64,000 nt of DNA, taken from assembly GCA_036874045.1 (NCBI GenBank), contig JAZBRI010000008.1, positions 6,401,001 through 6,465,000 on the forward strand. Direction: 5' to 3'. Position numbers and translations under genes: made by a program. This DNA comes from Cymodocea nodosa. Taxonomy: Eukaryota > Streptophyta > Magnoliopsida > Alismatales > Cymodoceaceae. Below the pieces are notes generated by a model. It had not been told where the DNA came from and did not search any database. It saw only the letters and a program-made list of their open reading frames with translations. Below are positions 1,792-57,340 of the stretch, in pieces. The stretch's first letter is position 1; each line of letters opens with the position of its first letter.

Positions 1792-3165
1792 TGTTAGTTC
1801 ATTTATTTATCAGTTAATTTTGATGATGAAAAACGTGTGGTTTAATTATTTTTGTCATATTTTAGATGTCTTTTTACTCAAATGAATTTTGGCTAACTAC
1901 TATGAACTTAAAATCTTTTAAATTAGATTTTGATAGGTTATTTTGTCTACAGTGTATTGATCGGAGAGTTATTTTATAAGTCACCGAACAAAACAGGACA
2001 AATCGGATGGTTATGTCTCTCTCTCCTGGCTTTTCAGATAGTTATATCAGTAACAATTTGAAAAGTATTTATCTTCGGTGAGTTAAGTCTTTTTATGTTT
2101 GGATATGATTTTTATGGTAAGTCTCCGAAATCCCTTTGTTTTTGGATAGTTAAGGTTTTTATTCCAGAGAGTTAGCTATTTCTCTGTTTTTAATATATTT
2201 TTGATTACTTTCTTCAGAAGGACACGTGTCAGTCTCTCATCACTTGACTTAAGTGAGTTTCGGAAGGTTACGATGTAACTATCCGAAAACTCTTAAGAAT
2301 CGGAGAGTTATCTTCAATAAGTATCCGAAAATAGTTTTAAGCTTTGGATGGTTGAGTTTTCTATTATTTTCTAACTTAAGTGACTTTTCGAAAGGTTACC
2401 TATGTAACTATCTGAAATGACTTAAGGATTGGAGAGTTATCTTTATAACTATCCGAAACATGTCCACTCTATCAGATAGTTTATTTTTAATATTTTATAA
2501 TGCTGTTTTAGAAGGACACGTGTTTCAATTTTAATACATGACTTAAGTGGTCTTCCGGAATGTTAGTTCTATCTATCCGAAATGTTTTTGAGTTTTGGTA
2601 GGTTATCTTTCTAAGTCTCCGATTTTCTGAAAGCCTCTGAATATTTTATTTTTATAGAAACTACAACTATTATTAATTGACTAATCTTTGTGGCAAGATA
2701 TCTTTTGATTGTAGATCTCAACTTTATTATAATTGAAGGTTGCCGGAAATGAATTCCTACATAAGGCATCTGACCATTTCAGAATTCTTTCCACTTATGC
2801 AAATCTCGAAGGAAAAATAAAAAGGATTTTGCAGAAAATTGAAAGAGATACACACAGAATTTTTTAACACTCGAAAGGAGAAATTGTCTGCTCAATAATT
2901 CTGCAAACACTTTGAAGATTCGTCTGCAACAAAGTCTAGAAGATCAACAGCTGCAAATCAATCAAGAATTCTCCTCAAAGCTTTTGTGTCAACTCTTCAT
3001 TGGAGTTGATCTAGTCTTGTGTGTCGTGTTCATTTTGAGTCTGTGACTCTTGGTTTTAAATTGTTGTCCTTTTTGTGTTAAAACCTTAACTCACAAGGGT
3101 GTTGTGAGTATACCTCCACAAGGTCAGGGCCTTGATGAAGAGAGTGAAGTGTGATACTTCACTTG
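1792..3165 (+). repeat. 5' LTR of element B, first part (split by element D)
   Basis: Begins TGTTAGTTCATTTATTTATC, the same start as the copy at 20139. It is collinear with that copy up to the word acttg at 3161-3165, where element D is inserted; the rest resumes at 11247. It contains degraded dyads of the type CGGATAGTTA...TAACTATCCG. Several intact in the sister LTR are broken here; for example the arm after 2040 reads aacaatttgaaaag where the sister has aactatccgaaaag. There is no polypurine tract just left of 1792, consistent with this being a 5' LTR inserted in element A. Confidence 0.85.
3161..3165. repeat. Target-site duplication of element D, left copy
   Basis: The five bases acttg precede the D LTR. 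The five bases after the right D LTR (11242-11246) are actta, one transition different. The uninterrupted sister LTR near 21508 reads cacttgctccag, which is the empty site and confirms a 5-bp duplication at insertion. Confidence 0.85.
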
Positions 3166-3769: not shown

Positions 3770-4510
3770 GCCTTTCAGATAGTTAGCTGTGTAACTCTCC
3801 GAAGAATATCTGTAACTCACCGAAAGATCACTTAAAACTTTCTGTCATGTAGGACTCCAAAATATATACTATGAGTTGTCATTCAATCGGATACTTATAG
3901 CTGTAACTTACCGAACAATTATTTAACTATCGGATAGTTGGCTACAGTAACCCTCCGTTAACTTTCCGATTACTTTAATTCAGTACGTGCATAAAAGACT
4001 GACTTAAGTTTCAGATGGTTATCCTTGTAACTCACTGAAACGCTTCAATATTTCAGATAGTTATCTTTCTAACTCTCCGAAAACTTATTTGAGCTTCTCT
4101 CTGGAATTCTGCACGTGGGAAATATAATGACTTAAGTTTTGGATAGTTAAATTATAACTCACCGAAACTCTCTTGAATGTTCGGGTAGTTATCTTTCTAA
4201 CTCTCCGAAAACTTATTTGAGCTTCTCTTTGGAATTCTACACGTGGGAAATACAATGACTTAAGTTTCAGATAGTTAAACTGTAACTCACCGAAACTCTC
4301 TTTGAGATTTCGGATAGTTATCTAATTCTCCGATAAGAAAACTCAGATAGTTATCTAACTCTCTTACAAGTTCTTTAAGCTTCCTTTCTGTATTTCTTCA
4401 CGTGATTAATTAAATGACTTAACTTTCGGATAGTTATACCTGTAACTCTCTGAAAAGTCCTTTAAGCTTCCAGATAGTTAACTCCTTAACTATCCGATCA
4501 TTCAATCCTT
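3770..4510. promoter_or_regulatory. Array of CGGATAGTTA / TAACT..CCG dyads in the U3 of D (3' LTR)
   Basis: About twelve inverted-repeat units, each with a left arm close to TTTCGGATAGTTA, a spacer of 3-8 bases and a right arm close to TAACTCNCCGAAA. Good examples begin near 4059 and 4183. CACGTG and ACTTAAGT words lie in the spacers between units. The array lies upstream of the TATA word on the element's strand, so it is placed like an enhancer. Confidence 0.75.
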
Positions 4511-4698: not shown

Positions 4699-4910
4699 AT
4701 CTCCCCCTTTTTGATAATGGCAAAAACCTTACAATGTATTACATGTATTTCTCTTCCTATATATCTATATAGAAAAGCACACGAGGAATATAGAATAATT
4801 TAAATTTAAAGACTCCCTCTGATTTTCTGAAATTACTCCCCCTGAATTTCTCCCCCTACTTTAATGCAGCTTTGCTTACCAAAATATGATATTTCTCCCC
4901 CTTTTTTGCC
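4699..4910 (-). promoter_or_regulatory. Cluster of polypurine tracts of element D
   Basis: On the minus strand, AAAAAGGGGGAGA abuts the LTR at about 4700-4714. Further tracts of GGGGGAG type lie at about 4826-4855 (two) and 4890-4905. The tract next to the LTR would prime plus-strand DNA synthesis. Multiple tracts are a known trait of the Sirevirus lineage. The rest of 4699-5077 is non-coding 3' region. Confidence 0.75.
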
Positions 4911-9708: not shown

Positions 9709-11241
9709 TGTTAGGACCTTAAGGCTTACCAAAGGGGGGGTGAATGGTAATAATTCATTTCTTTAACCTTTTAGAAGTAGTTTAATGTAAAGAGATAGCA
9801 AGCACACAATAAAGAGTTCACACAGGGATTTTTAGGTAGTTCACTACTAACGGCTAGTCCACCCCCAAGGGATACTTGGGCTTCACTAAACTCTTGCAAA
9901 CTTACAATCACTTGCTTTAAGGTTTAAGCAAGAACCAACCAACCATTCACTTGACCTTCCTTGTCAAAGCTTCAATCAATCCTTTCTCTGAAGTTTTGAT
10001 TCGTGTACTTCAGTAAACACTAGCTTGTGAACAACAGAGTTGAATGCGTGATGAGCTTCTAAACTTCAGTCTGTAAATGTTGAAGATGATTTGATCTCTA
10101 AAGCTTTTCTTCTGTTGAGCTTGGTGTAAGTGTGTATATGAGCAAAAAGCTATCTACATCCGTTGTCTGTATCTTGTATATATACCAACCATGTGTGACG
10201 ATCATATTTTCTTCCAACAGATGTATTCTACTATACTGGATTAGACTTCAGTCCCAAATACAGTAAGTTACTGTTCAAGAAGTTATTTCAAGATGTCCTT
10301 CCGATTTTCTTAACCTTTCAGATAGTTAGCTGTGTAACTCTCCGAAGAATATTTGTAACTCATCGAAAGATCACTTAAAACTTTTTGTCATGTAGGATTC
10401 CAGAATATATACTGCGAGCTGTCATTCAATCGGATACTTATAACTGTAACTTACCAAACAGTTATTTAACTATTGGATAGTTTGCTATAGTAACCCTCCG
10501 TTAACTTTCCGATTACTTTAATTCAGCACGTGCATAAAAGACTGACTTAAGTTTCGGATGGTTATCCCTGTAACTCATCGAAATGCTTCAAGATTTCGGA
10601 TAGTTATTTTTCTAACTCTTCGAAAACTTATTTGAGCTTCTCTCTGGAATTCTACACGTGGGAAATACAATGACTTAAGTTTCGAATAGTTAAATTGTAA
10701 CTCACCGAAACTCTCTTGAATGTTCGGATAGTTATCTTTCTAACTCTCCGAAAACTTATTTGAGCTTCTCTTTGGAATTCTGCACGTGGGAAATACAATG
10801 ACTTATGTTTCGGATAGTTAAATTGTAACTCACCGAAACTCTCTTTGAGATTTCGGATAGTTATCTAATTCTTCGATAAGAAAACTCGGATAGTTATCTA
10901 ACTCTCCGACAAGTCCTTTAAGCTTCCTATCTGTATTTCTTCACGTGATTAATTGAATGACTTAACTTTCGGATAGTTATACCTATAACTCTTCGAAAAG
11001 TCCTTTAAGCTTCTGGATAGTTAACTCCTTAACTATCCGATCATTTAATCCTTCTTATCTTGAGAAATACAATTCTTAACTGTCTGATTTTCTACAGCAG
11101 CACATTTTGAGATTTACTGCAATCTGTTTGCTGCTTAGGATTGTTTGCCTTTTGATCTTTTACTGCATTGACTAAACCTGAGAAATACAAATCAAAACCT
11201 GACATTGATTTTTGCATTATCAAAATCTAGAGGTCCTTTCA
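9709..11241 (-). repeat. 5' LTR of element D
   Basis: Exactly the same length (1533 bp) as the copy at 3166-4698. It has the same TATA word (10177-10184) and a better-preserved dyad array at about 10315-11045. One clear dyad at 10722-10754 has arms GTTCGGATAGTTATC and TAACTCTCCGAAAAC with a 4-base spacer. Confidence 0.92.
10315..11045. promoter_or_regulatory. Array of CGGATAGTTA / TAACT..CCG dyads in the U3 of D (5' LTR)
   Basis: I count about twelve dyads in 730 bp, roughly one every 60 bp. The units vary in spacer length but keep CGGATAGTTA on one arm and TAACTCNCCGAAA on the other. The words GACTTAAGTTTCGG and CACGTGGGAAA recur between them. Positions match the sister array in the 3' LTR. 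Confidence 0.78.
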
Positions 11242-11246
11242 ACTTA

Positions 11247-17437: not shown

Positions 17438-17787
17438 TTTTTAGGGGGAGTTATTTTTTCTTTACCTAGATAGGTGCTAGAAGTTTTCGGAGAGTTAGCA
17501 TATTGTTTTTGTAGGTTTTCGGACAGTTCAGTCAGTAACTATCCAAAAATTCCTGTGTTTCGGCAATTTACTGTCTTTTGGCCTTTGTACCTCTTTTTTG
17601 GATAGTTATCCTGTAACTATCCGAAAATTCTTTTCTTTCGGTAAGTTAGGCCTCTAACTCACTGATTTCTGGAACTTTCCGATATTTATGTGCTTTCAGA
17701 GGGTTATCTTCTCTATCTGTCTCGACCTTCTGATTTTCAAACCCTTCGTTTGCTCCATTTTTTTGGCACCCTCTCCAATCTTCCTAA
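17438..17787 (+). promoter_or_regulatory. Internal purine tract and dyad block in front of ORF3 (element B)
   Basis: Starts with a polypurine-like AGGGGGAG (about 17441-17448) well inside the element. Dyads of B's own LTR type follow: TTTCGGAGAGTTA, TCGGACAGTT...TAACTATCC, and a clean one near 17599-17630 with arms TTGGATAGTTA and TAACTATCCGAAAA. ORF3 starts about 150 bases later. The layout copies a 3'-end/U3 arrangement, so I read it as an internal promoter. No clear TATA word stands out. Confidence 0.6.
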
Positions 17788-19940
17788 ATGCCTAAGTCTA
17801 GACGTTTTTCTGGCCTTTCTCTACAAGAGCAAGAACAGAGGATTCTTGTATTGGAACAAGAACTCTAATTAGGTATGGCAAACCTATCTCCTAGCAAAAT
17901 TCAACAAATTGTTTTTGTCGAAGAAGAAGTTGTCGATATTGAGTTAGTTTATGGAACTTTAGAAATAGTTACACGTTTCCTATGTTTGGAAAAACAACTT
18001 TCTCTTTTTCAAAAATTTTGTCCCATCAATACTCCTTTTGAACATCAAATGCGTTTGAAATCCAAACAGAGAACTTTCAAGAGAAAATCCACCAAAACCT
18101 CTACTGGACATAAGAAATAGAAGACTAGTCAGTCATCTTCTGCTCCTTCCAAGGGTTCTAAGAAATCTTCCTCTGATGATGAGGATATTTTTACTGCTAA
18201 AGTTAACTCCTTAGAACCTCAATTTATGAGGCTTATGTCAGCCAATTTTTGAGTTCTTCTAAGGATACTAGGGCTTTTAAGAAATGTGCATTGCATATGG
18301 CCCTACAGTTACAAACTACCTTACTCAAGAGAAGAAATCAAGTGTTACTCAATCGACTCTATAATCAACCAGGAATAAAAATTCAAGAGCCTTCTGAACC
18401 TGGTTGTTATCATGCTGCTTCTGATATGGTCGATAAGTAGAAATTTATTGCTGAACTAGAATTCTGTTTGCCTAAGAAAGGAATTGATTTCAGGCATGTT
18501 GTTGGGAAAACTCATTTTAAATCTCCTGAGCTAACTATTGGCTCTTTATATCAAACTGCTCCTGGTTCTCCGAAATTGATTTCTCCATCTCCACAGGATT
18601 TACTACTTGCTTCTTCTATTCCTTCCTTTGAGGCTGCCAAAACTCAATTCACATACTCTAGGAGAAGAAAGAAAACTCTCTCCTCTCATCCAAGTTTTGC
18701 CAAACCTCCTTCTATAAATAAAGAAGACTCCACACCTCCTCCACCTTCTTCTGATGTAGAATCTCATCCAATTCCTTCTCCCCATACTCATATTTTGATA
18801 CAAGGATTGTATGTAGATTCAGACTCTGCTCCTGTTCCTCCATCTTCTCCACCTACTAAAACCCCTTTAGCCAATGAAACTCTAGAGGCTCCACTCAATT
18901 ATTCTTCAGATATCCCTGCAGATGTATATTATTTTAGATCTTCTACAGCTAGGGATCTCTTTTTCAATAAATATCAAGGAATGAAGATCATCTACAGTAG
19001 ACCTGTAAATTTTCAAGGAATGGATACAATTCACAGTTTGCTCTATCATCAAGGGCTTTTCAGTTTTATTTCTCCTTCATCTAGGTTATCCATTTTTTGA
19101 AGACCTTATTCCCCTTTTCTACTCAAATCTTGAAATTTTTTCACATTTTTGTCTCCTGCACCTACAAAATCAAACAATAAGGATTGATGGAGAATTTTTG
19201 GAGACCCTTTTTGGAATACCATCTACTGGTATCAATATTGCTCTTTCTCCATCAGAGCTGGGGTGGTAGGAATCTGAAATGAATAAATTGATTGGAAAAA
19301 CTCTTGATAAACACTTTAAGTTGTTAAGACTACAGATCTTAATGGTTTGGTCCAGATGATTGCCACCATCCTATCTTCCTTTGTATTTCAGAAAATAGGT
19401 CATGTAGATGAATTGGAGAGGAAAGTTTACCAAGCCACTTATGTTGTGATGGTTGGTATCAAGGTTAACTGGGCAAAAGTAATTATTGCTCAGATTACTC
19501 ATCTGCAAAGTTTTCTATTTTATGGAGATTTCATTTATCATCTGATGACCAGATATATTGATTTATCGGGCAAACCTCTGAAATCCATTAAAAGAAGAGT
19601 ACTACAGTTTAAGGATCTTCAGAGAATGTCTTCCTCTGATCCGGTTGAGTTGCCCCCTCCTTTTCAACCATCTGCAACTTAAAATTCAACACCTTAGTCT
19701 GTAGCAGCTTCACCTCCTATCGCACCTCTTTTTGCAGAAACTTCACCTCCTGTAGCACCTACTCCAACTCCAACAGCTCCATCTACAGTAGTTGACAGTT
19801 CTGTTACCCTCTTAAAACAAAATGAGCTTCTACTTCAACATAATCGGATGCTTTTGGATCAAGTAGCTCATTTAGAACAACTTCTAAGGGAGAGGGATAT
19901 TTGAATTCAAGCTTTGTTACAGAAAAAGTCAACTGAATCT
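17788..19940 (+). pseudogene. ORF3 of element B (putative plant transposon-protein domain, coiled-coil tail)
   Basis: I choose the ATG at 17788: it opens the basic segment MPKSRRFSG and is in frame with the longer stretch from 17875, past a TAA near 17866. The first half is low-complexity, basic then Ser/Pro-rich. The shared domain runs from about 18975 to 19590: VNFQGMDTI, LFYSNL, GEFLETLFGIPS, GHVDELE, YQATYVV, VNWAKV, SFLFYGDF. The C-terminus (about 19798-19900) is a leucine-rich coiled coil. Stops near 18118 and 18438 and shifts near 18250, 19090 and 19345 break it. The function is unknown; its place after pol is where env-like genes sit in Sirevirus and Athila elements. Confidence 0.68.
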
Positions 19941-20124: not shown

Positions 20125-20138
20125 AAAAAGGGGGAGAT
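20125..20138 (+). promoter_or_regulatory. Polypurine tract of element B
   Basis: AAAAAGGGGGAGAT directly before the 3' LTR start TGTTAG at 20139. A weaker purine tract (aaagggagaga, about 20088) lies 40 bases upstream. Confidence 0.88.
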
Positions 20139-21871
20139 TGTTAGTTCATTTATTTATCAGTTAATTTTGATGATGAAAAACGTGTGGTTTAATTATTTCT
20201 ACCATATTTTAGATGTCTTTTTACTTAAATGAATTTTGGTTAACTGCTATGTACTTAAAATCTTTTAAATTAGATTTTGGCAGGTTATTTTGTCTACAAT
20301 GTATTGATCGAAGAGTTATTTTATAAGTCATCGAATAAAACAGGACAAATCGGATGGTTATGTCTCTCTCTCTTGGCTTTTCGGATGGTTATATTAGTAA
20401 CTATCCGAAAAGTATTTATCTTTGGTGAGTTAAGTCTTTTTATGTCTAGATATGATTTTTATGGTAAGTTTCCGAAATCTCTTTGGTTTCGGATAGTTAA
20501 GGTTTTTATTCCAGAGAGTTAGCTGTTTCTCTATTTTTAATATATTTTCGGTTACTTTCTTCTGAAAGACATGTGTCAGTCTCTCATCACTTGACTTAAG
20601 TGACTTTTCGGAAGGTTACGATGTAACTATCTGAAAACTCTTAAGAATTGGAGAGTTATCTTCAGTAAGTATCTGAAAATAGCTTTAAGCTTTGGATGGT
20701 TGAGTTTTCTATTATTTTCTGACTTAAGTGACTTTTTGGAAGGTTACCTGTGTAACTATCCGAAATGACTTAAGGATCGGAGAGTTATCTTTATAAGTAT
20801 CCGAAACATGTCCACTCTATCGGATAATTTATTTTTAATATTTTATAACGCTGTTTTAGAAGGACACATGTTTCAATTTTAATACATGACTTAAGTGGTC
20901 TTTCAGAATGTTAGTTCTATCTATCCAAAATGTTTTTGAGTTTCGGCAGGTTATCTTTCTACGTCTCCGATTTTCTGTAAGCCTCTGTAGATTTTATTTT
21001 TACAAAAACTACAACTATTATTAATTGACTAATCTTTGTGGCAAGATATCTTTTGATTGCAGATTTCAACTTTATTATGATTGAAGGTTGTTGGAAATGA
21101 ATTCCTGCAGAAGGCATCTGACCATTTCAGAATTCTTTCCACTTATGCAAATCTCAAAGGAAAAATAAAAAGGATTTTGTAGAAAATTGAAAGAGATACA
21201 CACAGAATTTTCAATACTCGAAAGGAGAAATTGTTTGCTTAGTAATTTTGTAAACACTTTGAAGATTCGTTTGCAACAAAGTCCAGAAGATCAACAGCTA
21301 TAGATCAATCAAGAATTCTCCTCAGAGCTTCTATGTCAACTCTTCATTGGAGTTGATCTAGTCTTGTGTGTCGTGTTCATTTTGAGTCTGTGACTCCTGA
21401 TTTTAAACTATTGTCCTTTTTGTGTTAAAACCTTAACTCACAAGGGTGTTGTGAGTATACCTCCACAAGGTCGGGGCCTTGGTGAAGAGAGTGAAGTGTG
21501 ATACTTCACTTGCTCCAGATTAGGGTCTTGAGTACACAAAGTTGGTGCTTTGTGTGAGGTTTTTGTTCAGCCTTTAAAAACATCTATAAGGTCGTTGCTT
21601 AGCCTACAAAAGCAACTTGTTTAAGGTTTGTGCTTAGCCTTAAAAGCACTTAGTGGAATTCTTGAGGTTGTGGCCTTGAGGAGTGGACTACCTAGTTTGG
21701 GGAACTACTATAAATCTCTTTGTGTTCCTTATTTTTGCATTACTAGTTTTAATTCTAAAATCAATTAATCAGGGTTCATTAGTGTCAACAACTTCTGAAT
21801 TTTTTAAAAGTAAAATAAACTTTATTAGGATACTATTTACCCCCCCTCTAGTGTGCCATTCGATCTTTTCG
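20139..21871 (+). repeat. 3' LTR of element B, also 5' LTR of element C
   Basis: 1733 bp from TGTTAGTTCA to TTTTCG (CA end mutated to CG). It follows a polypurine tract and is itself followed two bases later by a primer site and a gag gene. One LTR therefore serves as the end of B and the start of C. Its dyads (about 20300-20960) are better kept than in the 5' LTR. Confidence 0.87.
20300..20960. promoter_or_regulatory. Dyad array in the B/C LTR
   Basis: Clear units: 20378-20411, with arms TTTTCGGATGGTTA and TAACTATCCGAAAA and a 6-base spacer; about 20596-20630, with arms TTTTCGGAAGGTTA and TAACTATCTGAAAA; and 20729-20764, with arms TGGAAGGTTACC and TAACTATCCGAAA. GACTTAAGTGACTT and ACATGTGTCAG words lie between them. 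Confidence 0.75.
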
Positions 21872-21873
21872 AG

Positions 21874-25379: not shown

Positions 25380-25960
25380 CGTTACTTTAATGTTAACTAA
25401 ACGAGTAACACAAGTATATATATAACTTAACGTTTCTAACTTAACGAGTTCCTCATGTGCCATTCCACGTGACAAGTACTGTAGCTAACTCAACGAACTA
25501 AGTCCGTGGTGTTATGCTAATTCAACGAACCATCTCCGTTGTGTTATGATAACTCAACGAACCATCTCCGTTGTTTTATGATAACTCAACGAACCAGTAA
25601 TAAACAAATGTTTTTATAATAATAATTTTACCACGTGCAAAAATAACAACTTAAGTTTATAACGCTAACCTAATGCGTTGCCTTAGTATTCAATATAGCA
25701 ACTCAACGCGTTTAGTTATGTTAACTTAACGAGTTAAACATGTGCACCTCACGTGATACAATAGAACATTCGTAACTTATAATTTCACCACGTGTATAAC
25801 ACTAACTTAACGAGTTCGTCTCTTCTTTTACTCACTAACTTAACGAGTTATCACGTGACCTATTTTGACCTTTAAGCCTCTAACTTAACGAGTTCTCACG
25901 TGACCTCTATACAAACAAAACTCTAACTTAACGAGTTGTCTAAACATGCACTATTCATGA
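25380..25960. promoter_or_regulatory. Array of CGTTG-type and CTCGTT-type dyads in the E LTR
   Basis: Repeated half-sites TAACTTAACGAG and TAACTCAACGAAC with inverted partners. The clearest dyad is 25537-25559, arms CGTTGTGTTAT and ATAACTCAACG. CACGTG words (for example in ttccacgtgacaag and tcacgtgacct) alternate with them. The outer word differs from that of B and D, but the GTTA...TAAC core is the same. Confidence 0.72.
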
Positions 25961-26739: not shown

Positions 26740-29010
26740 TTAGCGACCCCTCCTAAGTATATCACTTATAGCATTACATATTTTATCTCCTAGATGCCTA
26801 ATATCATTTCTGATGTCGTTAAGCACTACATCTAAGTCAGGAGGTAGCTGGGTTTGCTGTTCTGCTTGAACTAAATAACTTTGTTGTTGTTGTTGTTGTA
26901 TATGGTCTGTATCAGGTTGTTGTTGTTGTTGTCGTTGAGGTTTATGTATGGCCTTGAATTTTTGCAAATCTTTGACACTAAATGCTCTCATGCCTTTAGT
27001 TTCAGAGGGCCAGTTGGATAAATTCAATTGGCTTGCAATGAGTCTACATACAACATCACCATAAAATAACTTTGAACTCATATGCTGTAGTTGAGAAGTG
27101 AAAACATCAAACCAATTGATTTGAATTCTATTCAGCAAGCTATAAGTTGCATATAAACAACTTCTGCTGACTTCCATATTGTGTCCAACTCTCTGAAATA
27201 AATTTGCATGCAATATATTTAAAATAAACCTTGCCTCTGCATTTAGATTTTCCATTAATCTCATTTTAGAATATACATCTGGAATTTTTGATAAAGACTG
27301 AATGTTCCATTCCAATTGTCTTATCATGTCAAATCTGTTTGTAACAACAACACATTCATTCTTTAATCCTAAAACTTCAAAAATTAACTCAGGAGACAAT
27401 ATAAACTCCTGTTCATTTATTTGAGTTTTCAGAAAATTTCCATTCTTGTCCAGATTGCTATAAAAAGCTACAATAAGCTCTGTGTATTGCTTCCATTTCG
27501 TTCCTACTGGCAAGAATTTAATGAGGCATTGAAACTCAAACAGATCTCTTATTTCCATCAAATTTCTGAATTTTATTGGACGAGCATGCAGAATCTAACA
27601 TGTAATCAGATTATTGTATTTCTGCAATGCTTCTTCAGATCTAAAATGAATTGCATTACCTTGAATTTTTAATATTGTACACAAAGAAGGTGATACTTGA
27701 AGCCATGATTTAGAGTTTAATTCATCTTCAGGAACCTCTTCTTCAAAATGAATGTCATGTTGTTCCTCTTCCAAAATATTATCTTGAAGCTGCTAAGGTA
27801 AGCTTGATTCTTCAGCTTCAACAGTGTTAGGAACATTGTCAATATGCTCAACATTCATCTGTTCAGTCTCTATAGAATGTTTAGAGTACAATTTTTCTAC
27901 AAATTCTATAGCCGGTGTATCTGTTTGTAATTGTTCATTTTGTTCAATAGATATTTCCATTGATTCATGCTGTGAATTCTCAGACTCTACTTCTATAGAT
28001 TCAGTAGAAGGCTGGTTAACTTTTAGCTCTTCTGGAGTCTTAACAATTTCAATATCTGCTACTCCAGACAATTCAGCCTTTGAACTAGTAACTACCTCAA
28101 CATTGTCAATTATATCTGCAATAACTTGTTCAATGTCAGGTGTCTGATGCTCTGATTTGTCAATTTCTGCATCATCGGGACTTGTACTAATAGAAAAACT
28201 TGAGCTCATATTTGACTTGTATTTCTTCTCAAGCTTTCTAGCAAGGGAAAATAAAGTCTCATTATCTTCATTAGTTTCAGTGTGTTCGGAACTGATGAGT
28301 TTATCAGATGCACAATAAGGTACAATGTCTAGACATACATTGTCCTTTGAAAATAAATTTTCATCTGATTTTCCTTTTTTAATAGACTTTGTTTCCTTAG
28401 ACATAATTTTTCTGATTTTCCTTCTACTATAACATTTCTGTTTCTCCTCTTCAAGTATTGCTGTTTTCTTTTCAAATTGCTCCATAAAAGTTTTCTGCTT
28501 TAATTCTTCTAAGGCACTTTCTATTGCAACGGCCTTTCGAAGACTATCAACTTTTGTTTTGTCTACAGCAATATCTGATTCTACTTGTTTTGAATATAAA
28601 GGAGTAGGGATAGTTGATTCATGCTCTTCCTCAAATGCATGTAGTCTTGTACCGTTTATAGGAGTTTGAGGAGTTCTATTTGATGAACCTACACCTTTTT
28701 CCAAATATTTTGCATATTGTTCCAAAAATGCAATCTCAGCACATTTCATTCTGTATTCTCTATCATATTTACTTCGAATACCCATGTTTGTAATACTTGC
28801 ATCAGTATGTTGAAGTTCTTGGCTAACTTCATCTAATATATCCTGAGAAAAGAAGTAATCTCTATAAAGTTCTTCTAACCTTTTGTCCACTCGAAATATT
28901 TTCTTGAACCAAGTACGTGGAACTTCATCATTCTGTATTTCTTTTCCTTTTGCATCTCTTTTGCTTTTGTCTTTTCCTCTGCCATGACCTTTGTAGAACT
29001 TGGCGACCAT
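26740..29010 (-). pseudogene. ORF3 of element E, about 756 codons with two stops
   Basis: The best-kept full ORF3 here. I choose the ATG at 29010, because E2 has the matching ATG and the same opening, MV(A/S)KFYKG. One frame runs to 26740 and is broken only by TAGs at 27793-27795 and 27595-27597. Parts: a basic Gly/Lys-rich start; a conserved segment with TWFKKIFRVDKR and GIRSKYDREYRMKC; a long acidic low-complexity middle; the shared domain (about 27560-26990) with LFEFQCLIKFLP, FYSNL, LSPELIFEVLGLKN, RVGHNMEV, YATYSLL, IQINWFDV, KLFYGDV; then a poly-Gln run and an amphipathic tail. I see no transmembrane segment or signal peptide, so an envelope role is not supported by sequence. The function is unknown. 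Confidence 0.75.
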
Positions 29011-29560
29011 CGTCGCAGGTTGTAACAGCAACAAGTGGGAAAGATTTTCTTGACAAAGTTTACAAATAACCTAAGTCCCCGTGTTATAAGTGTTTAAATA
29101 GGGTTTTTAGGAGTATAACTCAACGTGAAGATAAGTCAGGTTTAGAAATTAAATAAATATTGAATAAAGCTTATTCAATCAAGGTACCCGAAATATTCAA
29201 GTATAACTCATTGAGTTAACTAACCTAACAAGTAAAACGCTGTCTAGAGGCAGTTTTACACGTTACCTTATCTAATATAACGTCTAGTTAGTACACTTAA
29301 ACAAGTTTTGGATGCTTCCAACTAAAACCTTCTGAAAACAACACACATGCTAAACTTAACATTATCTTGAGAACATTGTAAACTATTTGAACATTTTGTC
29401 TTTTGAATCTAGAATAGTTTATTTGTCTTTTTAAATTATTTCATCAAGATTTTAAGAGAACATTAATTCAGATTAACTAAGATTTGTATTTTAAATTATA
29501 TTAATCTATTTTTTTTTTTTTGACATTGTTAATGCTCCCCCTACAAATATACTTCAAATA
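29011..29560 (-). promoter_or_regulatory. Internal promoter block of ORF3 (element E)
   Basis: TATTTAAA at 29093-29100 on the minus strand (context CCCTATTTAAACAC) lies about 85 bp before the ATG. Upstream are half-sites of the E type: TAACTCAACGTG (about 29115) and TAACTCATTGAGTTA (about 29205-29220). The block begins with an internal purine tract, TTTGTAGGGGGAGC (about 29537-29550). E2 has the same layout with the same TATA word. Confidence 0.65.
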
Positions 29561-35801: not shown

Positions 35802-36766
35802 GAGAATTGTCGATATTGTCTATAGAAAGCTCGATACTCCTCCTCTATACACACTAGCCGTCCATCGATCACACCCTTTTCTTCTTTTTCTTCTTTTCTT
35901 TTATATTTCTTCAGTAGTAACTGCTTTTGCTTGAATGGTCGGTTGGATTTCCTTCATTCATATCAACGGTGATGATTTCTTCTCCCTACGCAATACATGC
36001 AATCGTGGTTTTTCTTCCAATTGTCTTGTTTCTGCAACCGCTACAGTGGCATATTAGAAAATAAATAGTCCGTGGAGTTACAGATAACTCAATAGACTTA
36101 CTTCGTTGATTTAACTATAAAACACATGCATAAATTTAACTATCCGATGCTCAGGTGCATTTCGGATACTTACAAAACTTAACTATCCGATGCCCAGATG
36201 CATTTCGAATACTTACAGATAACTCACCGAAAATCCACTTAAGTCACTTTACCAGAACATAACACATGTCAGCAGCAGTTTAATAATAAAATACACATTT
36301 CAGAGAGTTACAGGTTTAACTATCCGATGCCCAGCTGCAATTTCGGATAGTTATAGATAACTCACCGAAAGTTCACTTAAGTCAAGCATTATGGTTTCGA
36401 CACGTGTACTTCAGGAAATAATAAAATATTCTTTTAAAATATAACTGTTCGGCAATTTAAACATAACTCTCTGATACATTTTCGGTCTGTTAAACATAAC
36501 TGTCCAAAATATGTTCGATATGTTAAACATAACTATCCGAAATATCAAAAAATTCGGAAACTTAAGAATTTCACAACCTGCAACTTACCGACAGTTCAGA
36601 AATGTACTAAATTGACATTAATTCCCCCAATTTAAGCAGATTCTTTAATTAAAGCATATAACAGTGCAATTATAACATAATGTCTTAATTCTCATATGAT
36701 AAGCTAAATATTATGCAATTAACCATCATTTAACCATTAATAATATGCACTTTTTCATTCTAAACA
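35802..36766 (-). repeat. 3' LTR of Athila element G, truncated
   Basis: Matches about 50805-51771 of the other LTR, ending in TTCTAAACA before the polypurine tract. The missing part is the minus-strand end of the LTR; the sequence passes directly into gag of E at 35801. It carries dyads such as 36314-36351 (arms TAACTATCCGA and TCGGATAGTTA) and CGTTG-type half-sites near 36070-36115. Confidence 0.82.
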
Positions 36767-38482: not shown

Positions 38483-39619
38483 TTAAGAACATGATTGAAA
38501 AGTAGGAACAAATGGAATAAATGTATCAGTCCAAGCAAACTTTTTAGGCATAGTTCTTCTTGCTATTAATTCTATTTTAATGTAGTTCTTGTTCATTCTT
38601 AATTTGTAAACGTGTAATATATTATAAATTCCAAATACTAGTGTATTACCATTAATGATATGAAATGTAGAAAGGGATCCTTTTTGGTTCCAAGGTAATG
38701 TAGCAGTTTCTATTTCTACATCTATTTTAATATACTTCTCTTCCCACTTCCATTCATTAATGTCTTCCATAATACATATTTGAAATTTCATCAATTCATC
38801 CCACCATCTTATCAAACATAAAGTAGGATCATCTTCTTCATTATACCACATTCCTATTTGAATTTTATTAAATTCTGCAGATGGTGGTTTAGCTATATCA
38901 CTCAGTGTAGGTAAAATTTCTAGAAATTCATCATAACTGTCTATGCTCACTATGTATAAATCAGATCCAAATGCTATTGATATATCTGTGACAAGATATA
39001 CATATCCATCAAGTATGACATGTGTTTGGTTAATTAATGATTTCTGTCCTAGATATATCATAACATCTTCATTCCAATATCTATTCAAAAAATTATACAC
39101 ACTTAAGCGTAAATCTTCACCCCAATTTCCTATAGGTCTCTAATAATATAATTTTTCAGGAATTGTAGAATTTTTATCAGAAAATATTAAAGCCAATCCA
39201 CAATTTATAGTTGGTACTTCATATCTATTAGGTCTTCCTATATACCATTCTTCTCTTGTTATAGGATTTCTTATCAAAATATCAGGTAATAAACTTGCAT
39301 ACCTTGGTCTCATCTTGTATATGATTAATCCTTCATCTATCCCCATAATATGATCTATTCCTTCTAATGTATTGGGTGGAATTCTAGTAGTTTCTTCCAT
39401 AGGCAGATATTCATGGTTAATTGAACTACGATTAAATAACCTCCATTTGAATCTATCTCTAATCTTAGTCATTTTTGCAGCTTGTAGTCCGTGAAAATAT
39501 TTTTCTTCAATACAGTCTTTAATTTCCTTTGATACACAGCACAGCTTGCACAAATCTTTAGCTGACAAATTACTCAGTACTTCCCTTAGTGCATCCAATG
39601 GTAATTGCATCAATTCCAT
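38483..39619 (-). pseudogene. F-box gene carried inside the Athila element, one premature stop
   Basis: A 379-codon frame without introns, interrupted only by a TAG at 39140-39142 (codon 160). The N-terminal F-box (LPLDALREVLSNLSAKDLCK, then LCCVSKEIKDCIE) would bind SKP1 in an SCF ubiquitin ligase. The rest resembles plant F-box-associated or kelch-type regions: IDEGLIIY, IRNPITREEW, GYVYLVTD, then a repeat-like C-terminal half that would bind a substrate. It lies between gag and the 3' end of the element on the same strand. A dyad cluster is 70-125 bases upstream, and a T-rich stretch ending TTATACAG lies just before the start. I infer capture of a host gene or transcript. A normal host locus invaded from both sides is the alternative. 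Confidence 0.75.
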
Positions 39620-39659: not shown

Positions 39660-39765
39660 CAAAAATTAACATAACTACTACACACCCTCGTGGAGTTAAG
39701 GCATAACTCAACGGACTAAGTTCGTTGAGTTAAAGACTAACTCTACAATACTATTAACTATAAAT
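39660..39765 (-). promoter_or_regulatory. CGTTG-type dyads before the F-box gene
   Basis: Two adjoining units at about 39687-39750: arms CTCGTGGAGTTA and ATAACTCAACGGA, then TTCGTTGAGTTA and CTAACTCTAC. The same cluster is present in Athila copy G2 at about 52405-52480. Confidence 0.65.
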
Positions 39766-42091: not shown

Positions 42092-44333
42092 TTAATCTCT
42101 ATTCCTAAGTTCATCTACTTCCTTCTGGAGTTTTTCTAATTGAAGTTCTAATTGATTAATTTTTTCTACTACTCCTATTATTCCTCTAGAAGGTACAGCT
42201 ATCTCTACAGCTACAAAATTTCTATACTCTTTCACTGAAATGGTTCTTGATCTGATCCTTTTTGATGTCTATTTCGTGAAATCAATACAATCCACCATCA
42301 GCAATGGAATCAAATCTCCATAAAACAATTTCTTCTTTACAATTTTCAGCTTGGAGATAAAAACTGCAGTCCAATTTATTTGAATTCTATTTACAACTAC
42401 AAATATGGCCCATTTGACAAATTGACTTAATTCTATGTCATGGCCTTGTCGTTGATAGACATTCTTAATTAAAATGTTGGCTACCATGTGTGCTTTACCA
42501 TTTAAATGCTTCAATCTGTTTAATAAAGGCACACCAGGATTGATAGCCAAACTATCCTTGATTTCCTGTTCAGTCCATTCAACTGCAGTTGTACTTTCTA
42601 ATATTTCTTGTCCTTCATTCTTTAATCCAAAAATGTTGTGGAGAAGCTCTAGTGTTATCTGTACATCAGCTTCCTCCACGTTGGAAATTAATCCTCCTTC
42701 TCCTTCTCTTAAATTTGCATAGAAACAGGGCACTAAATTCTCATATACTGCATGCCCTCTTTCTTGAGAAATAAACTTCAGTAGACCTTGGAATTCAAAT
42801 AAATCTTTGATTTCTTGCATTCCATCCTAATTTACTGGTCTACTATAAATAATATCACAACCACTAATTTCTTGATATTTGATATAAGCTTCTTGACTCA
42901 AAAAATGTACTTCATTCAAAACTGTTGTTTCAGTCGGGTCAGTAATGTACTTTGTTGTTCTAGAGGGGTTTGTTCTTGATTTTCCTCTACCATAGGCTGC
43001 ATCTGAATGTTCTCTACAGATTCCTGAATTTCTATTTCTGTTTCTTTTATCTGTGGTGGTGAGTCGGCAGAACTCTCCACTCTGTCTTGAATTCTTTCCA
43101 TAAATTGCTGAAGAGTTTCTTGATCTTTAGTGGAATCTGTAAAGTTATTTTTGTCCAAATGGCTTCTTTCAGCCTCTTCATTTTCTGCTCTTTCTTCTTC
43201 CTCCTAACAACCAATCTGCTCTGTCACTGTTCTTTCTGATTCTGTAACAGATTGGGATGGAGTCACGGGCAATTCAGTTTCTGCCCTAATTTCTGTTCTT
43301 TCTTCTTGTACAAGCTGTAGATTAATTTCAGCCTAATTTTCTTCTTGTCTTTGCTCCTGCTGCTGCAACTCCTGCTCCTCCTCAGAATCAAATAGTAGGT
43401 TTATAAAAATTTGCTCCACAGGCCCTATTGACATTGGTATCTCAGATTTAATCTCTTTTTGATAGTCAGACACTATCTCTTTTCCTTTCCTTTTTCTGAT
43501 TAATTGTGTTTGTTCTTCCTCTTCTTCTTCTGAGATTAAATCTACAAAAGTAGGCTCTGCAGGCCTTCGAGCCACAAGTACTGGCTCTTCCTATTTAACT
43601 TTCTCTATAATTACTAGTCTCGAAGGACCAGCCTCAGCTTCTCTTGCAGCACTTGATTTAGTTGCTGCCTGATGCTGTTCAACCTTTATTCTGTACTAGG
43701 CCCTCAACTTTTCTTCGACCCTTTTTTTCTTAATGGCATCATATAAAATATGTGCCTTAGCTGTAGCTATTTCTTGAGTATCACCTTAGTCTCTTGCTGT
43801 TTTGACCAAGCTAGTAAATTCTTTCTCTTCTTCATCAGTTCTCGGCCAAGCAAATGCAACTTGTGGCAATGGCTTTGTTGATTGAACTAGAGGTCCTAAC
43901 TGTTGTTCCTCAGGAATAGGTCTTTCAGTAGTCGGTTCCTCCCGTTCTTTAGTTGCCTCTTCTTCATTTTCTTTCCTTTCTTGCTCCCAGATCGCCCATT
44001 TTTAGCTCGTCTACAGATTTGCCTTTTGAACCAGAGCCAGGACTTACGTTGGATTAATTCTAGGGCAACTTCGTTGTTTGGCCTTATTTTTCTTTCCTTG
44101 CTTACAACAATTTCCGTAACAACCTTTATTCTTGTTTCCATTATATGAGGTATTTGTATACCCAAATCTACTAGATCTCTTCTGAAGTTGAAAAGTTTAG
44201 ATTCTACCTTCTGTAACTCTTTTTCTCTTATCGTATTTTTGATCTTTTGCCGCATGTGCCATTCTTCTAATTCCTTTAGAAATTCTGATGTGTCAACAAC
44301 ATCTTTCCAGAACTCAGGTGTCATCTTTCTCAT
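42092..44333 (-). pseudogene. ORF3 of Athila element G
   Basis: I choose the ATG at 44333, opening MRKMTPEFWKDV. The N-terminal part is basic and helical (to about 43900). The middle is acidic and Gln/Glu-rich (43575-42916). The shared domain is at 42820-42280: LFEFQGLLKF, CFYANL, ITLELLHNIFGLKNEG, LNGKAHMVANIL, RQGHDIEL, RIQINWTAVF, KKLFYGDL. After a stop at 42269-42271 the same frame continues into a leucine-rich coiled coil ending at 42092. Frameshifts and stops break the middle. The domain is clearly the same as in ORF3 of Copia elements B, E and F, although Athila belongs to another superfamily. Confidence 0.72.
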
Positions 44334-44399: not shown

Positions 44400-44640
44400 G
44401 GATAATGCCCCCAAAACCCTAGGTTTTAGTTTAAATAAGCCCTAAGTTTAGGCGGGTAATTGGGTCATTTCCCGAACCAACTATTACTCTCTCATCCGTG
44501 GTCTTAGCTACAGTACTCTGTTGAGTTACAGTTAACTCAACGGAATAAGCTCGTTGACTAACTCAAGACTCAATGGAGAAAGCTTGTTGAGTTAAGTGTA
44601 ACTCAACGGACTTACCGCATAAACAGATATAAAAATAAAA
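44400..44640 (-). promoter_or_regulatory. Internal promoter of ORF3 in G: TATA word and CGTTG-type dyads
   Basis: TATTTAAA at 44430-44437 (minus) lies about 95 bases before the ATG, the same word as in Copia E and E2. Two dyads lie upstream: 44518-44543 (CTGTTGAGTTA, TTAACTCAACGG) and about 44584-44611 (TTGTTGAGTTA, GTAACTCAACGGA). Confidence 0.7.
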
Positions 44641-44907: not shown

Positions 44908-46236
44908 CTAAGTAAAGCTCGAGTAGTCCTCTACTCTGACTTCTTCTATAATTCCAAAGGAGCTTTTTGGTATTTTCAGAATAGGTCTAAGTCTTTGTCC
45001 ATTTACTTTAAATATATTGTGATTTTTAGGATTTTCAAATTCAATAGCTCCATAAGGATAAATGTTTCGAACTATGTAAGGTCCTGTCCATCTAGATCTT
45101 AATTTTCCTAGATGGTTATGGAGTCTAGCCATCTAAAGATATACTTCTTGTCCTATTTCAAAACTTTTTGGAATAATTTTCCTATCATGCTAGAATTTCA
45201 TTTTCTCTTTTTCTCTTATAGTCTTCGAATAAGCTTCATTTCTAAATTCTTCTAATTCAATTAATTACATTTTTCTACTTTCAACAGCTTGATTTAAATT
45301 AGTGTTTAGAGTTTTTAATGCCCAATAAGCTTTATGTTCTATTTCAGCTGGTAAATGACAACTTTCTCCATATACTAGCCTAAAAGGTGACATACCTAAG
45401 CTCGTTTTATAAGCAGTTCTATAAGCCCAAAGTGTATCTATCAATCTATTAGCCCAATCTATTCTAGTAGGATTTACTACTTTTTCTAAGATTAACTTAA
45501 TTTGTTTGTTAGCACTTTCTACTTGTCCACTTGTTTGCGGATGATATGATGTTGTAATTTTGTGGTTTACTCCATATTTCTTCTTTAAGGCTTCAAAACT
45601 TCTATTACAGAAATGAGTTCCTCTATCACTGATAATAGCTTTAGGTATTCCAAATTAGGCAAATATATTGTTTCTTATAAATTGTATTACCACTTTATTG
45701 TCATTAGTTTTTGTAGGAATAGCTTCTATCCATTTAGATACATAATCCACCCCCAACAATATGTAATTAAATTGATTAGACATAAGAATTGGACCCATAA
45801 AATCTATTCCCCACACATCAAAGATTTCAACCTCAACAATAGGATTAAGAGGCATCATATTCCTCTTTGATATTCTTCCTATTTGTTGACATATTAAACA
45901 GCTTTAGCAATATTTATGAGCATCTTTGAATAGTGTTGGCCAATAAAATCCACATTGCAGAATTTTTGCAGCAATTTTCCCTAAGCCAAAATGCCCTCCA
46001 CAAGCTTGATCATGACAGAAAGACAATATGCTCGGATATTTAGTTTCTAGAACACACCTCCTTAAAACCAGATCAGGACACTTCTTAAATAAGTATGGGT
46101 CTTCCCAATAGTAATATTTTACTCTCGAGAAAAACAATTTCTTATCCTGTCTATTCCAATCCTTAGGTGTTAAACCAGTTACTAAATAATTAACTATGTC
46201 TACATACCAAGGCATTGTGTTGATGGTCATTAATTG
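44908..46236 (-). pseudogene. pol: integrase of Athila element G
   Basis: The zinc-binding region (HDQACGGHFGLGKIAAKILQ, then CLICQQIGRIS) is followed by the core with WGIDFMGP (first Asp), [10 protein letters not shown] (second Asp) and [16 protein letters not shown] (Glu), then [10 protein letters not shown]. The C-terminal part carries LRSRWTGPYIV and ends at 44908. One frame is held from about 46230 to 44908, with stops near 45904, 45655, 45268, 45193 and 45133. All three catalytic residues can be read. Confidence 0.87.
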
Positions 46237-47832
46237 TTCATCAGGAAAATTATCCTTAATTTCAATATTTGATTTTTCTATTTGTAATCTTGATAAATAA
46301 TCTGCTACTACATTCTCACAAACTTTTTTATCTTTAATTTTTAGATCAAATTCTTGTAATAATAATATCCATCAGATCAATCTAAGCTTAGTTTCTTTTT
46401 TTTTATTAGATGTTTTAGAGCTAAATGATCCATGTATACTATTACTTTAACTCCAATCAGATATGATCTAAACTTTTCTAAAGCAAACACAACAGCTAAT
46501 AATTCTTTTTCTGTAGTTGTGTAATTAACTTGAGCATCATTTAAGGTTTTGCTTGCATAATGAATCACTCTAGGAGATTTTTCTATCTTCTGTCCTAACA
46601 TTGCTCCTACAGCAAAATCAGAAGCATCGCACATTAATTAAAATGGATGGCTCCAATCAGGTGCTTGAATTATAGGAGTTGAAATTAAGCTAGTCTTAAG
46701 TTTGAAAAATGCTTCCTTGCAATTTTTATAAAAGTTAAATGGGACATCTTTTAATAGATTAGTTAAAGGTCTAGCTATTTTGCTAAAGTCTTTAATAAAT
46801 CTTCTATAAAAACCAACATGTCCTAGAAACGATTTAATATCTTTTACTGATTTAGGTTCTAGTAGATTAGAAATTACTTCTATTTTAGCTTTATCTACTT
46901 CCAACCCTTTCTTAGAAACAACATGTCCTAAGACTATTCGTTGTTTAACCATGAAGTGACATTTTTCCCAATTTAAAACCAGATTTTTTTCCACACAGCG
47001 TTTTAATATTTAGTCTAAATTACTTAAACAAACTTCATATGAGTTTCCATATACAGAAAATCATCCATAAATATTTCTAAAAAATCTTCAGTCATTCCAG
47101 TAAATATGCCTTGCATACACCTTTGAAAGGTAGTTGGTGCATTGCATAATCCGAATGTCATTCTCTTAAAAGCATAAGTTCCATTAGGATAGGTGAAAGT
47201 TGTTTTCTCTTGATCCTCTAATGCTATTGGAATTTGATTATAACCTGAATACCCGTCTAAGAAACAAAAATATTCTTGCCCTGCTAATCTTCCAACGTTT
47301 TATCTATAAAAGGTAAGGAAAAATGATCTTTCCTAGTCACACCATTCGGCTTTCTATAGTCTATACATACTCTCCAGCCTGATTGAATTCTAGTAGGTAT
47401 CAAGTCTTGACTTTCATTCCTAATAACTGTTAATCCTGATTTCTTGGGAACTACATGGATTGGACTAACCCACGAGCTATGAGAAATCGGCTAAATTATG
47501 TCATTATCTAACCATTTCACTATTTTTTTCCTGACTACTTCTTTAAGGTTTGGATTTAATCTCCTCTTAGGAATTCTAACAGGTTTAGCATTTTCTTCTA
47601 AATATATGTGGTGACAACATAAAGTTGAACTTAATCCTTTTATATCAGTCATAGTCCATCCTATTGCTTCTTTATAACTTTTTACTACATCTTTTAATTT
47701 AGCTATTTGATCCTCTTTTAAATCTGAAGCAATAATGATTGGATAGGTTTGTTTCTCTTCCAGAAATATATAAGTTAATTCAGGAGGTAAAGGTTTTAAT
47801 TCTAAATGTTGCCCATTAGAAGTAAGAGCTCC
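46237..47832 (-). pseudogene. pol: reverse transcriptase and RNase H of Athila element G
   Basis: Reverse transcriptase has WRVCIDYRK, RKDHFSLPFID and an FMDD-type region that is frame-shifted (about 47280-47000). It continues with NLVLNWEKCHFMV, GHVVSKKGLEVD and FLGHVGFYRRFIKDFSKI (46994-46638). RNase H has LMCDASDFAVGAMLGQ, HYASKTLNDAQVNYTTTEKE and VIVYMDHLALKHL (46634-46377). These phrases are diagnostic of the Athila clade. Several frameshifts lie between 47280 and 47000, so the protein is dead. Confidence 0.85.
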
Positions 47833-56855: not shown

Positions 56856-57340
56856 TGTCGATTAAGCTTCGTTGTGCACTGTAGAACTTAGTGGAAGTGA
56901 AGATTACAAAACTAGGGTTTTACCAAGGTAGAAACACGAAAGGTTGTTAGTAAAACATTTATAACTCTTCGAGTTTATAAACAGATTCAATCATTGAAAT
57001 CATAAATATAAGATCCGTTATTGATAAATAACTCGAGTGCTTACAATAACTATACGAGTTTTACAACCGACAAAAGCAGAATGCTTAGCGTAACTGTTCG
57101 TGCAAAGAAAATAACTTCTAGCTAAGTGAAAAGTGAGAAAACTCGAAAACTTATGATAACTATTCGAGTTTTGTGAGCAGTAAAGCACATAAATATACGA
57201 CAAACATGAATAGTTATTGTTAGAGATTAAGTCTTTTAAAAAATATAATAATATTAAGTTAACTGTTTTAGTTTCTCGAATGGATAGGTGTGAAAGTCGA
57301 AGAGTTAAACATAACTGTTCGAGTTTCAACTAAGACATTA
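56856..57340 (-). promoter_or_regulatory. Internal promoter of ORF3 in F: CTCGAA-type dyads
   Basis: TATAAATG at 56956-56963 (minus), about 100 bases before the ATG. Upstream dyads carry F's own LTR word: about 57032-57060 (AACTCGAGTGCTTA, AACTATACGAGTT) and about 57138-57172 (AACTCGAAAACTTA, AACTATTCGAGTT). The word matches the LTR of F and not those of E or B. Confidence 0.68.

Follow-up and report, generated by a model that had tools for sequence, protein, structure and literature searches.

Arrays of a TCG-N3-AGTTA half-site with a class base in Copia and Gypsy-type retrotransposons of Cymodocea nodosa

Introduction

The closest described arrays are those of Sireviruses, which carry palindromic repeated motifs in high copy number, both within the LTR and ahead of env (Bousios et al. 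2010, PMC2829016; this and the other papers are cited from their accessible sections). According to these sections, the consensus of the motifs differs from element to element, most share a CGG-CCG signature, and a repeated-motif box is recognised by palindromic copies, at least eight to an element, that lie in the LTR's upper half. The motifs were offered as support for an internal env promoter, the promoter itself not being identified there, and the function of plant env-like genes was called unproven. The Sirevirus signature is a polypurine tract (PPT), AGGGGGAG, followed by an AT/TG attachment site.

A second comparison is the VANC protein of VANDAL elements (PMC5735166, accessible sections). 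As in the DNA described here, VANDAL elements have family-specific short motifs in non-coding DNA that are partly amplified in tandem; the motifs vary among related elements, and the element-encoded protein is common to the families. VANDAL elements are DNA transposons with motifs in one orientation, whereas here retrotransposons have close pairs in inverted order. VANC has DUF1985 and DUF287, and its binding is documented by ChIP-seq and EMSA; in the present system binding is a prediction from sequence. A third relative is Retand (PMC11963269, accessible sections), a group of Gypsy elements with extra ORFs between pol and the 3′ LTR, likewise found here. The accessory ORFs of Retand are mostly antisense with Transposase_28, in contrast to the sense, Transposase_32-like ORF3 of this study.

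Since the arrays resemble the published Sirevirus repeated motifs, this kind of array is already known. An earlier note on this DNA had regarded a shared core with a family-specific extension as new; this novelty is smaller than was claimed, as Sireviruses were described in 2010 with palindromic motifs that are specific to each element and have a signature in common (PMC2829016, in the sections accessible). What appears to be new is a bipartite half-site, a class base locked between the arms of a pair, and the presence of both in a Gypsy-type element with a Sirevirus-homologous ORF3. The accessible sections of PMC2829016, PMC5735166, PMC3599292 and PMC11963269 contain no report of a TCG-N3-AGTTA motif or of an ORF3 shared by Sireviruses and Gypsy elements, within a literature that included few subscription journals.

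Results and Discussion

Nested elements of the window

The window, the whole 64-kb stretch that was analysed, has 69% A+T and contains LTR elements nested in one another. Element borders were drawn from self-BLAST and from reading of the sequence. Element D (LTR pair 3166-4699 and 9709-11242, 94% identity) is inserted within the 5′ LTR of element B, whose LTRs start at 1792 and 20139. Element E is present in two copies, E1 (LTR 24601-26214) and E2 (LTR about 57980-59553), and the F LTR spans approximately 53527-54778. A repeated stretch X (35796-37007 and 50802-52011) was considered as an LTR and rejected; it continues into a stretch homologous to the E linker and is for this reason named X linker. 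The window also contains a Gypsy-type element G, which is partly rearranged and has LTR ends that are not firm.

The Sirevirus PPT or close variants are present in B, D, E and F. D has AGGGGGAGAT followed by TC in one LTR copy and by TG in the other; the variants are AGGGGGAG-AC/TG in F and AGGAGGAG-AT/TG in E. The primer-binding site (PBS) TATCAGAGC occurs exactly at 11610 and 21877, both in B, and with one mismatch beside the D LTR at 9709. No exact copy in the window belongs to E or F, and the start of the 5′ internal region was not located in either element. Copia-type domains are gag in B, integrase in D and E, and reverse transcriptase (RT) in E2. F has no pol in the window; at locus L151 of a grid of 14 stretches (140 kb), copia integrase and RT adjoin an ORF3 that is 82% like that of F. 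By its domains G is Gypsy-type, and it may be called Athila-like by a degenerate PBS near 49690, in which 14 of 18 letters were matched by eye to the tRNA-Asp PBS.

20129..20140, plus strand: B PPT and attachment site AGGGGGAGAT/TG, exact Sirevirus signature
45268..47296, minus strand: G Gypsy-type pol with matches to RVT_1, RT_RNaseH, Integrase_H2C2 and rve, the last below its cut-off

A bipartite half-site, often in inverted pairs

The earlier note had described arrays of inverted units in the LTRs of five families, with a constant AGTTA/TAACT core. The arrays are real, and several of them occupy linkers that precede ORF3 or an F-box ORF. The pattern AGTTA-N2-8-TAACT occurs 44 times in the window (mean 1.64, maximum 6 in 300 block shuffles), and of the 1,024 possible five-letter words AGTTA is the top one in this inverted arrangement. 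Everted AGTTA pairs number 12 (1.56 expected) and direct pairs 8 (3.41 expected). The constant part is larger than the core: TCG stands three bases ahead of AGTTA in 96 of 372 occurrences, with 1.5 expected. Because TCG is so far above expectation at this place, the unit is a half-site TCG-N3-AGTTA, often arranged as an inverted pair across a gap of 2-7 bp. The outer words CGGAT, CGTTG and CTCGAA, which had been read as family-specific, are one half-site with a varying triplet, and the five families fall into three classes. Other triplets ahead of AGTTA are also in excess, namely TCA (33, 8.1 expected), TTG (17, 8.6 expected), CCG (11, 0.6 expected) and ACG (10, 1.2 expected). The excess of TCA and TTG matches what decay of methylated CpG would give, but CCG and ACG are in excess as well.

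The window holds 96 strict half-sites (shuffle mean 0.98, maximum 4) and 57 relaxed dyads (mean 0.06, maximum 1; 200 shuffles each). None of the 96 strict half-sites lies in the 23 long ORFs of the window, where 26.4 were expected. Relaxed half-sites are concentrated in 20 non-coding stretches (198 of 206 in 22.6 kb, against 8 in the other 41.4 kb), which were delimited with the sites already in view. All 12 close half-site pairs of the window, and 19 of the 21 in the grid, have the inverted order (+-).

The claimed tens of units hold for all families together and not for each: core dyads with at most one mismatch number 13 in D, 6 in B, 4 in E, 3 in G and 3 in F within the spans that had been quoted. 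None of the 57 relaxed dyads lies inside the E LTRs, whose sites are mostly single half-sites.

The sites are not confined to the window. In the grid, where sites were counted with a backwards-pattern control, 143 half-sites occur in 9 of the 14 stretches and the control gave 0. The genome (374.6 Mb, 28 contigs) has 24,724 copies of the exact dyad TCGNNNAGTTA-N2-7-TAACTNNNCGA and no copy of its backwards reading. Generic inverted repeats were less telling (200 merged dyads in the window, 132-156 in five shuffles); motif-specific tests were chosen because this density tests weakly. A scan of IMG/VR gave matches in at least 120 stretches, one match each among the 80 listed, and these were taken as chance; 57 half-sites were counted there in 1.07 Mb. 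Array units multiply by local duplication, so the counts are not independent events.

The class base of the triplet

The first base of the N3 triplet sorts the arrays into a G class (B, D), a T class (E, G) and an A class (F). The arrays are listed with the class bases of their relaxed half-sites; they have no strand.

1961..2620: B 5′ LTR array, G class, LTR interrupted by D; 16 G and 1 A of 17 in 1792-3165
3775..4497: D 3′ LTR array, G class; 23 G and 3 A of 26
10316..11040: D 5′ LTR array, G class, span of the original finding; 18 G and 9 A of 27
17487..17665: B linker array, G class, ahead of the accessory ORF pieces of this element; 6 G of 6
20308..20970: B 3′ LTR array, G class; 13 G and 2 A of 15
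25380..25960: E1 LTR array, T class, with half-sites mostly single; 13 T of 13 in 24601-26214
29204..29231: E1 linker dyad; 1 T and 1 A of 2, about 150 bp upstream of ORF 27796..29067
36070..36564: X linker array, mostly G class with one T; 13 G, 3 A and 1 T of 17
39688..39748: T-class dyads before the F-box ORF, 79-129 bp upstream; same layout at grid locus L137
41508..41675: G 3′ LTR-like array, T class, with uncertain LTR borders; 7 T of 7
44524..44609: G linker dyads, T class; 3 T of 3, 211-277 bp ahead of the ORF3 region's first ATG
49971..50061: G 5′ LTR array, T class; 5 T of 5, upstream of the Athila-like PBS near 49690
51082..51545: X linker array, second copy; 10 G, 3 A and 1 T of 14 in 50802-52010
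54246..54633: F LTR array, A class; 8 A, 1 T and 1 G of 10
56962..57322: F proximal linker array, A class, preceding the ORF3 of F; 5 A and 1 T of 6
57396..57715: F distal linker array, G class; 6 G and 1 A of 7
58400..58780: E2 LTR array, T class, with half-sites mostly single; 11 T of 11 in LTR about 57980-59553
63173..63200: E2 linker dyad, T class; 2 T and 1 A of 3

By element, the relaxed half-sites are 29 G and 3 A in the B LTRs with 6/6 G in the B linker, 41 G and 12 A in the D LTRs, and 24/24 T in the E LTRs with 3 T and 2 A in the E linkers. G has 15/15 T in its LTR-like and linker stretches, and 22/22 T when two gag pieces, less surely assigned to G, are added. The F LTR has 8 A, 1 T and 1 G, its proximal linker 5 A and 1 T and its distal linker 6 G and 1 A; both X copies together have 23 G, 6 A and 2 T. 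The majority class is therefore the same in LTR and linker for B, E and G, and for the proximal linker of F. The F and X counts mean that one linker can hold two classes. Strict sorting with one class per element was consequently rejected. Family specificity is also limited, since classes are common to B and D and to E and G. Two grid loci repeat the sharing of class between LTR and linker: L149 is of the T class on either side of its ORF3, and at L151 the array from RT to ORF3 reads GAAAAA and the one past ORF3 reads GAAA.

The class base also agrees between neighbours. Of 62 pairs of strict half-sites 20-150 bp apart in the window, 53 have the same class, as do 64 of 83 such pairs of the grid (label-shuffle means 24.9 and 30.6). 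For the two arms of a dyad the numbers are 7 of 12 and 16 of 21 (shuffled 4.8 and 7.7), and the unlike inverted pairs of window and grid are A with G in all 8 cases. At 151-3000 bp, the class is the same for 9 of 14 in the window (shuffled 5.7) and for 10 of 25 in the grid, the latter near chance (shuffled mean 9.1). C never occurs at triplet position 1 or 2 in the 239 strict half-sites of window and grid.

The whole genome has 12,762 G/G dyads and 151 (68 + 83) G/T dyads, where our own arithmetic from a non-random contig 1 sample gives approximately 7,900 G/T dyads if the arms were independent. This sample, the 90 first-listed dyad places, lies entirely on contig 1 and comprises 35 GG, 29 TT, 18 AG, 7 AA, 1 AT and 0 GT; with independent arms, 28.8 GT pairs would be expected. 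As a separate observation by eye, many of 100 listed G/T dyads are one base away from a G/G unit.

Constant parts that frame a class letter, which is rarely unlike between the arms, look like a tuned protein-docking code. The recognition code of the earlier note is retained in this form, with the first base matching between arms and neighbours, and without one word strictly per family.

Descent and composition of the arrays

Thirteen G-class modules of B, D, X and F align and have spacer words and spacing partly in common, and the G-class arrays of these elements are therefore probably of shared descent. Self-BLAST found no match of at least 120 bp between the E or G arrays and the G-class arrays. 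The D array contains a duplicated unit of 123 nt at 128-bp spacing. Of the 17 relaxed dyads of D, drawn from both LTRs of this single element, 15 have GAT as left triplet and 12 have GAG or GTG as right triplet. Neighbour distances below 70 bp (n=25) include 7 at 32-34 bp and 16 at 40-42 bp. A helical phasing was considered and dropped, because the resultant length is high at every period from 8 to 11.

It is very improbable that the arrays merely spread by replication slippage and hitch-hiked on active elements. The duplicated unit of D and the shared spacer words of the G-class modules would suit such passive tandem duplication. It does not account for E and G arrays that have an identical half-site without a long match to the G-class arrays, for arms that hold the same class base, for the absence of C from triplet positions 1 and 2 (0/239), or for the absence of sites from long ORFs (0/96).

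The arrays are rich in CpG. The observed/expected ratio is 0.94-1.72 in six arrays, in comparison to 0.15-0.32 in three pol regions, with an array GC of only 0.29-0.35; Sirevirus repeated-motif clusters form CpG islands (PMC2829016, accessible sections). The G-box CACGTG occurs 31 times in the window (1.96 expected), 29 of them within array-bearing LTR or linker stretches, and ACTTAAGT occurs 20 times (2.5 expected). The distance from CACGTG to the nearest dyad centre is approximately 38 bp in D (7/7) and 48 bp in X (2/2) and in the F linker (3/3). It is not fixed in E, fits in one of two cases in B, and CACGTG was not found among the G arrays.

As G-boxes are interleaved with the dyads, the arrays may be composite host enhancers. 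Host factors would then bind the sites, and the elements would be tuned to different paralogues or conditions; we put this prediction at somewhat less than an even chance. The readers would presumably be MYB-like or GARP-like proteins for AGTTA and bZIP or bHLH proteins for CACGTG; MYB had been named in the earlier note and is a possible, putative core-binding factor. The enrichment of CACGTG in array-bearing stretches and its near-constant offset in D, X and the F linker speak for host factors. Sirevirus motifs compared with PLACE gave mainly sites of stress-related factors (PMC2829016, accessible sections). The variable offset in E and B and the lack of CACGTG among the G arrays speak against them, and host enhancers alone leave the sharing of class between LTR and linker within one element unexplained.

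Placement relative to LTRs and genes

Six LTR copies together have 55 strict half-sites, of which 49 fall within the LTR's first half; all are 155-897 bp past the LTR start. First-half counts are 5/5 in B, 16/18 and 10/13 in D, 9/10 and 6/6 in E and 3/3 in F; the 18 strict half-sites of the D 5′ LTR are at LTR positions 202-897 in sense orientation. TATA-like words have no consistent position relative to the arrays. The best TATA candidates of B and E are downstream of their arrays, one TATA-like word is inside the F LTR array and several are inside the E array, and the dyads of the G 5′ LTR come just downstream of a TATA-like word, judged by eye.

Linker sites are found ahead of genes, at distances whose start points were partly picked by eye: about 150 bp upstream of ORF3 in E1 and in the grid copy L149, 130-325 bp upstream of ORF3 in F, and 214-382 bp ahead of an early accessory ORF piece in B. 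At L151, the 400 bp that precede the ORF3 N-terminal match are free of half-sites. The D copy, which is without ORF3, is also without a linker array; approximately 345 bp separate its LTR from RT, with no long ORF there. Sites also precede an F-box ORF.

38486..39619, minus strand: F-box ORF with one in-frame stop; PF00646 with 41.8 bits on 39143-39619

The F-box locus L137 (83% identity) has sites at the same four upstream positions, and L122 has half-sites 342-389 bp upstream of its F-box match. At L143 there is no half-site within 400 bp upstream of the F-box match.

This layout is largely that of the Sirevirus repeated-motif boxes (PMC2829016, accessible sections), which likewise have high-copy dyads in the LTR's first half and ahead of an env-like ORF, are CpG-rich with an element-specific consensus, and, going by PPT and PBS, belong to what is probably the same genus. 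Their copy number is found in D (13 core dyads in one LTR) and in B (6 plus the linker). E and F agree in position, the F LTR having about 3 core dyads and E mostly single half-sites. Sirevirus elements have no linker copies without env; here, the linkers of B, E and F have sites, and the D copy has neither ORF3 nor linker sites. The CGG-CCG signature is present in the G class (B, D, X) and not in the T (E, G) or A (F) class. The Sirevirus boxes are called Sirevirus-specific and absent from classic Ty1/copia, whereas the present sites also occur in the Gypsy-type G. Sites before an F-box ORF are a further feature of the present arrays, unlike those boxes.

Dyads could also act as stems in RNA or single-stranded DNA, as a source of small RNAs, in packaging or in processing. 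Palindromes of maize Sireviruses have been linked to small RNAs. In favour, the arms of many units are complementary beyond the core, and the dyads of the G 5′ LTR follow a TATA-like word. We nevertheless consider hairpins improbable: mid-stem mismatches are kept in D, E has single half-sites, and the B and E arrays may fall outside the main transcript, as the best TATA candidate is downstream of them.

ORF3 proteins

B, E, F and G carry related ORF3 proteins or pieces of them.

18441..19682, plus strand: B ORF3 pieces, Transposase_32-like domain at 19320-19679 by similarity to E and G
26743..27591, minus strand: E1 ORF3 C-terminal ORF, Transposase_32-like (24.1 bits, curated cut-off 45)
27796..29067, minus strand: E1 ORF upstream of the ORF3 C-terminal ORF, no Pfam family
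42272..42823, minus strand: G ORF3, Transposase_32-like (22.7 bits, curated cut-off 45)

The E1 ORF at 27796..29067 is probably the N-terminal part of ORF3. E1 ORF3 and G ORF3 share 36% identity over 184 aa (E 1e-34, a single comparison). B ORF3 is similar to G ORF3 (42% over 77 aa) and to E ORF3 (35% over 100 aa), and the F piece to G ORF3 (33% over 95 residues). Copia B, E and F and Gypsy-type G thus have both the sites and a homologous ORF3 in common. For Copia elements and a Gypsy-type element, the earlier claim of sites common to Copia and Athila is supported by domain matches and class counts. The N-terminal ORFs gave no significant match between E and G or between G and F. Pfam had no match for the B and F pieces and, up to an E value of 10, no DNA-binding family, DUF1985 or DUF287 in ORF3. 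An ORF3 alignment had no match among PDB sequences up to E 1, and an AlphaFold2 model of the domain has a pLDDT of 43.5.

These proteins could serve a VANC-like recognition. Each ORF3 would bind the site class of its own element and activate or un-silence its kin, and copies without ORF3, such as D, would borrow that of an element of the same class. VANC is itself TE-encoded and binds short arrayed non-coding motifs, with targets that differ among related TEs (PMC5735166, accessible sections). In agreement, B, E, F and G each combine their arrays with an ORF3 that has the homologous domain, the D copy without ORF3 carries G-class arrays like B, and the class base is common to LTR and linker. 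We regard this prediction as possible and rather unlikely. ORF3 has a weak Transposase_32 match in place of a DNA-binding family or the two VANC domains, its model is of low confidence, F and X hold two classes, and the F-box ORF likewise has sites upstream. The targets of VANC21 are in one orientation (PMC5735166, accessible sections), those here mostly inverted pairs.

In its widest form, Copia Sireviruses and a Gypsy element would share a two-part self-recognition module of a homologous ORF3 and TCG-N3-AGTTA arrays, in which the first triplet base serves as an exchangeable letter of specificity and co-evolves, lineage by lineage, with ORF3. Retrotransposons would then have their own counterpart of VANC, passed from one superfamily to another and wired to the LTR and to the internal promoters of ORF3 and the F-box gene. 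As a whole we hold this for doubtful.

Proposed mechanism and meaning

The starting points are the observed motif and its statistics, its placement, the arm-locked class base and its occurrence in Copia and Gypsy-type elements. Protein binding, a dimer and promoter function are predicted from them. The arrays are likely cis-regulatory DNA of the Sirevirus repeated-motif kind, with predicted dimer-binding promoter sites. A dimeric DNA-binding protein, or two cooperating molecules, would read the inverted half-site pair as double-stranded DNA, and some elements (E) would rely mostly on single half-sites. A protein on double-stranded DNA fits better than an RNA stem because of the arm lock, the mismatches in D, the single sites in E and the exclusion from ORFs. 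The gap between half-sites varies from 2 to 7 bp, which a rigid dimer would not favour. Within the site, the triplet and chiefly its first base would be the specificity position. One form of the reader may accept G and tolerate its transition product A, another T and another A; the readers may be paralogous host factors or ORF3 itself.

The location in LTRs and before ORFs fits a role in controlling both the LTR promoter and internal promoters. Upstream LTR clusters would regulate the genomic promoter, and those ahead of ORF3 and the F-box ORF the internal promoters of these genes.

A defined half-site, a discrete specificity position and more than 24,000 genomic dyads provide ready probes. 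If the reader protein is found, it would show how many retrotransposons of this genome are switched on, and whether the elements carry their own tuned activators.

G-boxes and apparently rearranged elements

The G-box CACGTG occurs 31 times in the window, against 2 expected (10527, 10655, 10783, 10942 and 27 other positions). LTR or linker stretches that bear arrays contain 29 of the 31 copies. The offset from CACGTG to the dyad, a pair of inverted TCG-N3-AGTTA half-sites, is constant in the Copia-type element D, in the repeated linker stretch X and in the F linker, but not in element E. In the linker of the Gypsy-type element G (44670-44860), a near-palindrome of a second type, CGGTTMAACYGG-like, was seen by eye directly upstream of the T-class dyads (triplet starting with T).

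An E-type LTR is represented at 52006-52381 by its first ~376 bp, which are joined to X. The junction lies at a short TTTTCA common to both, and the fusion looks like a template switch or recombination. At 20139-24600, a second PBS and gag come after element B; this LTR-internal-LTR-gag order is a tandem or recombined arrangement.

Open reading frames

27796-29067, minus strand: E1 ORF, taken as the N-terminal part of ORF3; one relative reported
38486-39619, minus strand: F-box ORF; counterparts in L122, L137 and L143

The sole reported relative of the E1 ORF is a 289-residue protein from a 1,493-bp ENA contig (91% identity, 68% of the query covered). The F-box ORF shares 74-85% identity with its counterparts in the three further fetched loci. 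T-class sites are located shortly upstream of it in the window and in L137. The F-box ORF may be an accessory gene of some retroelement.
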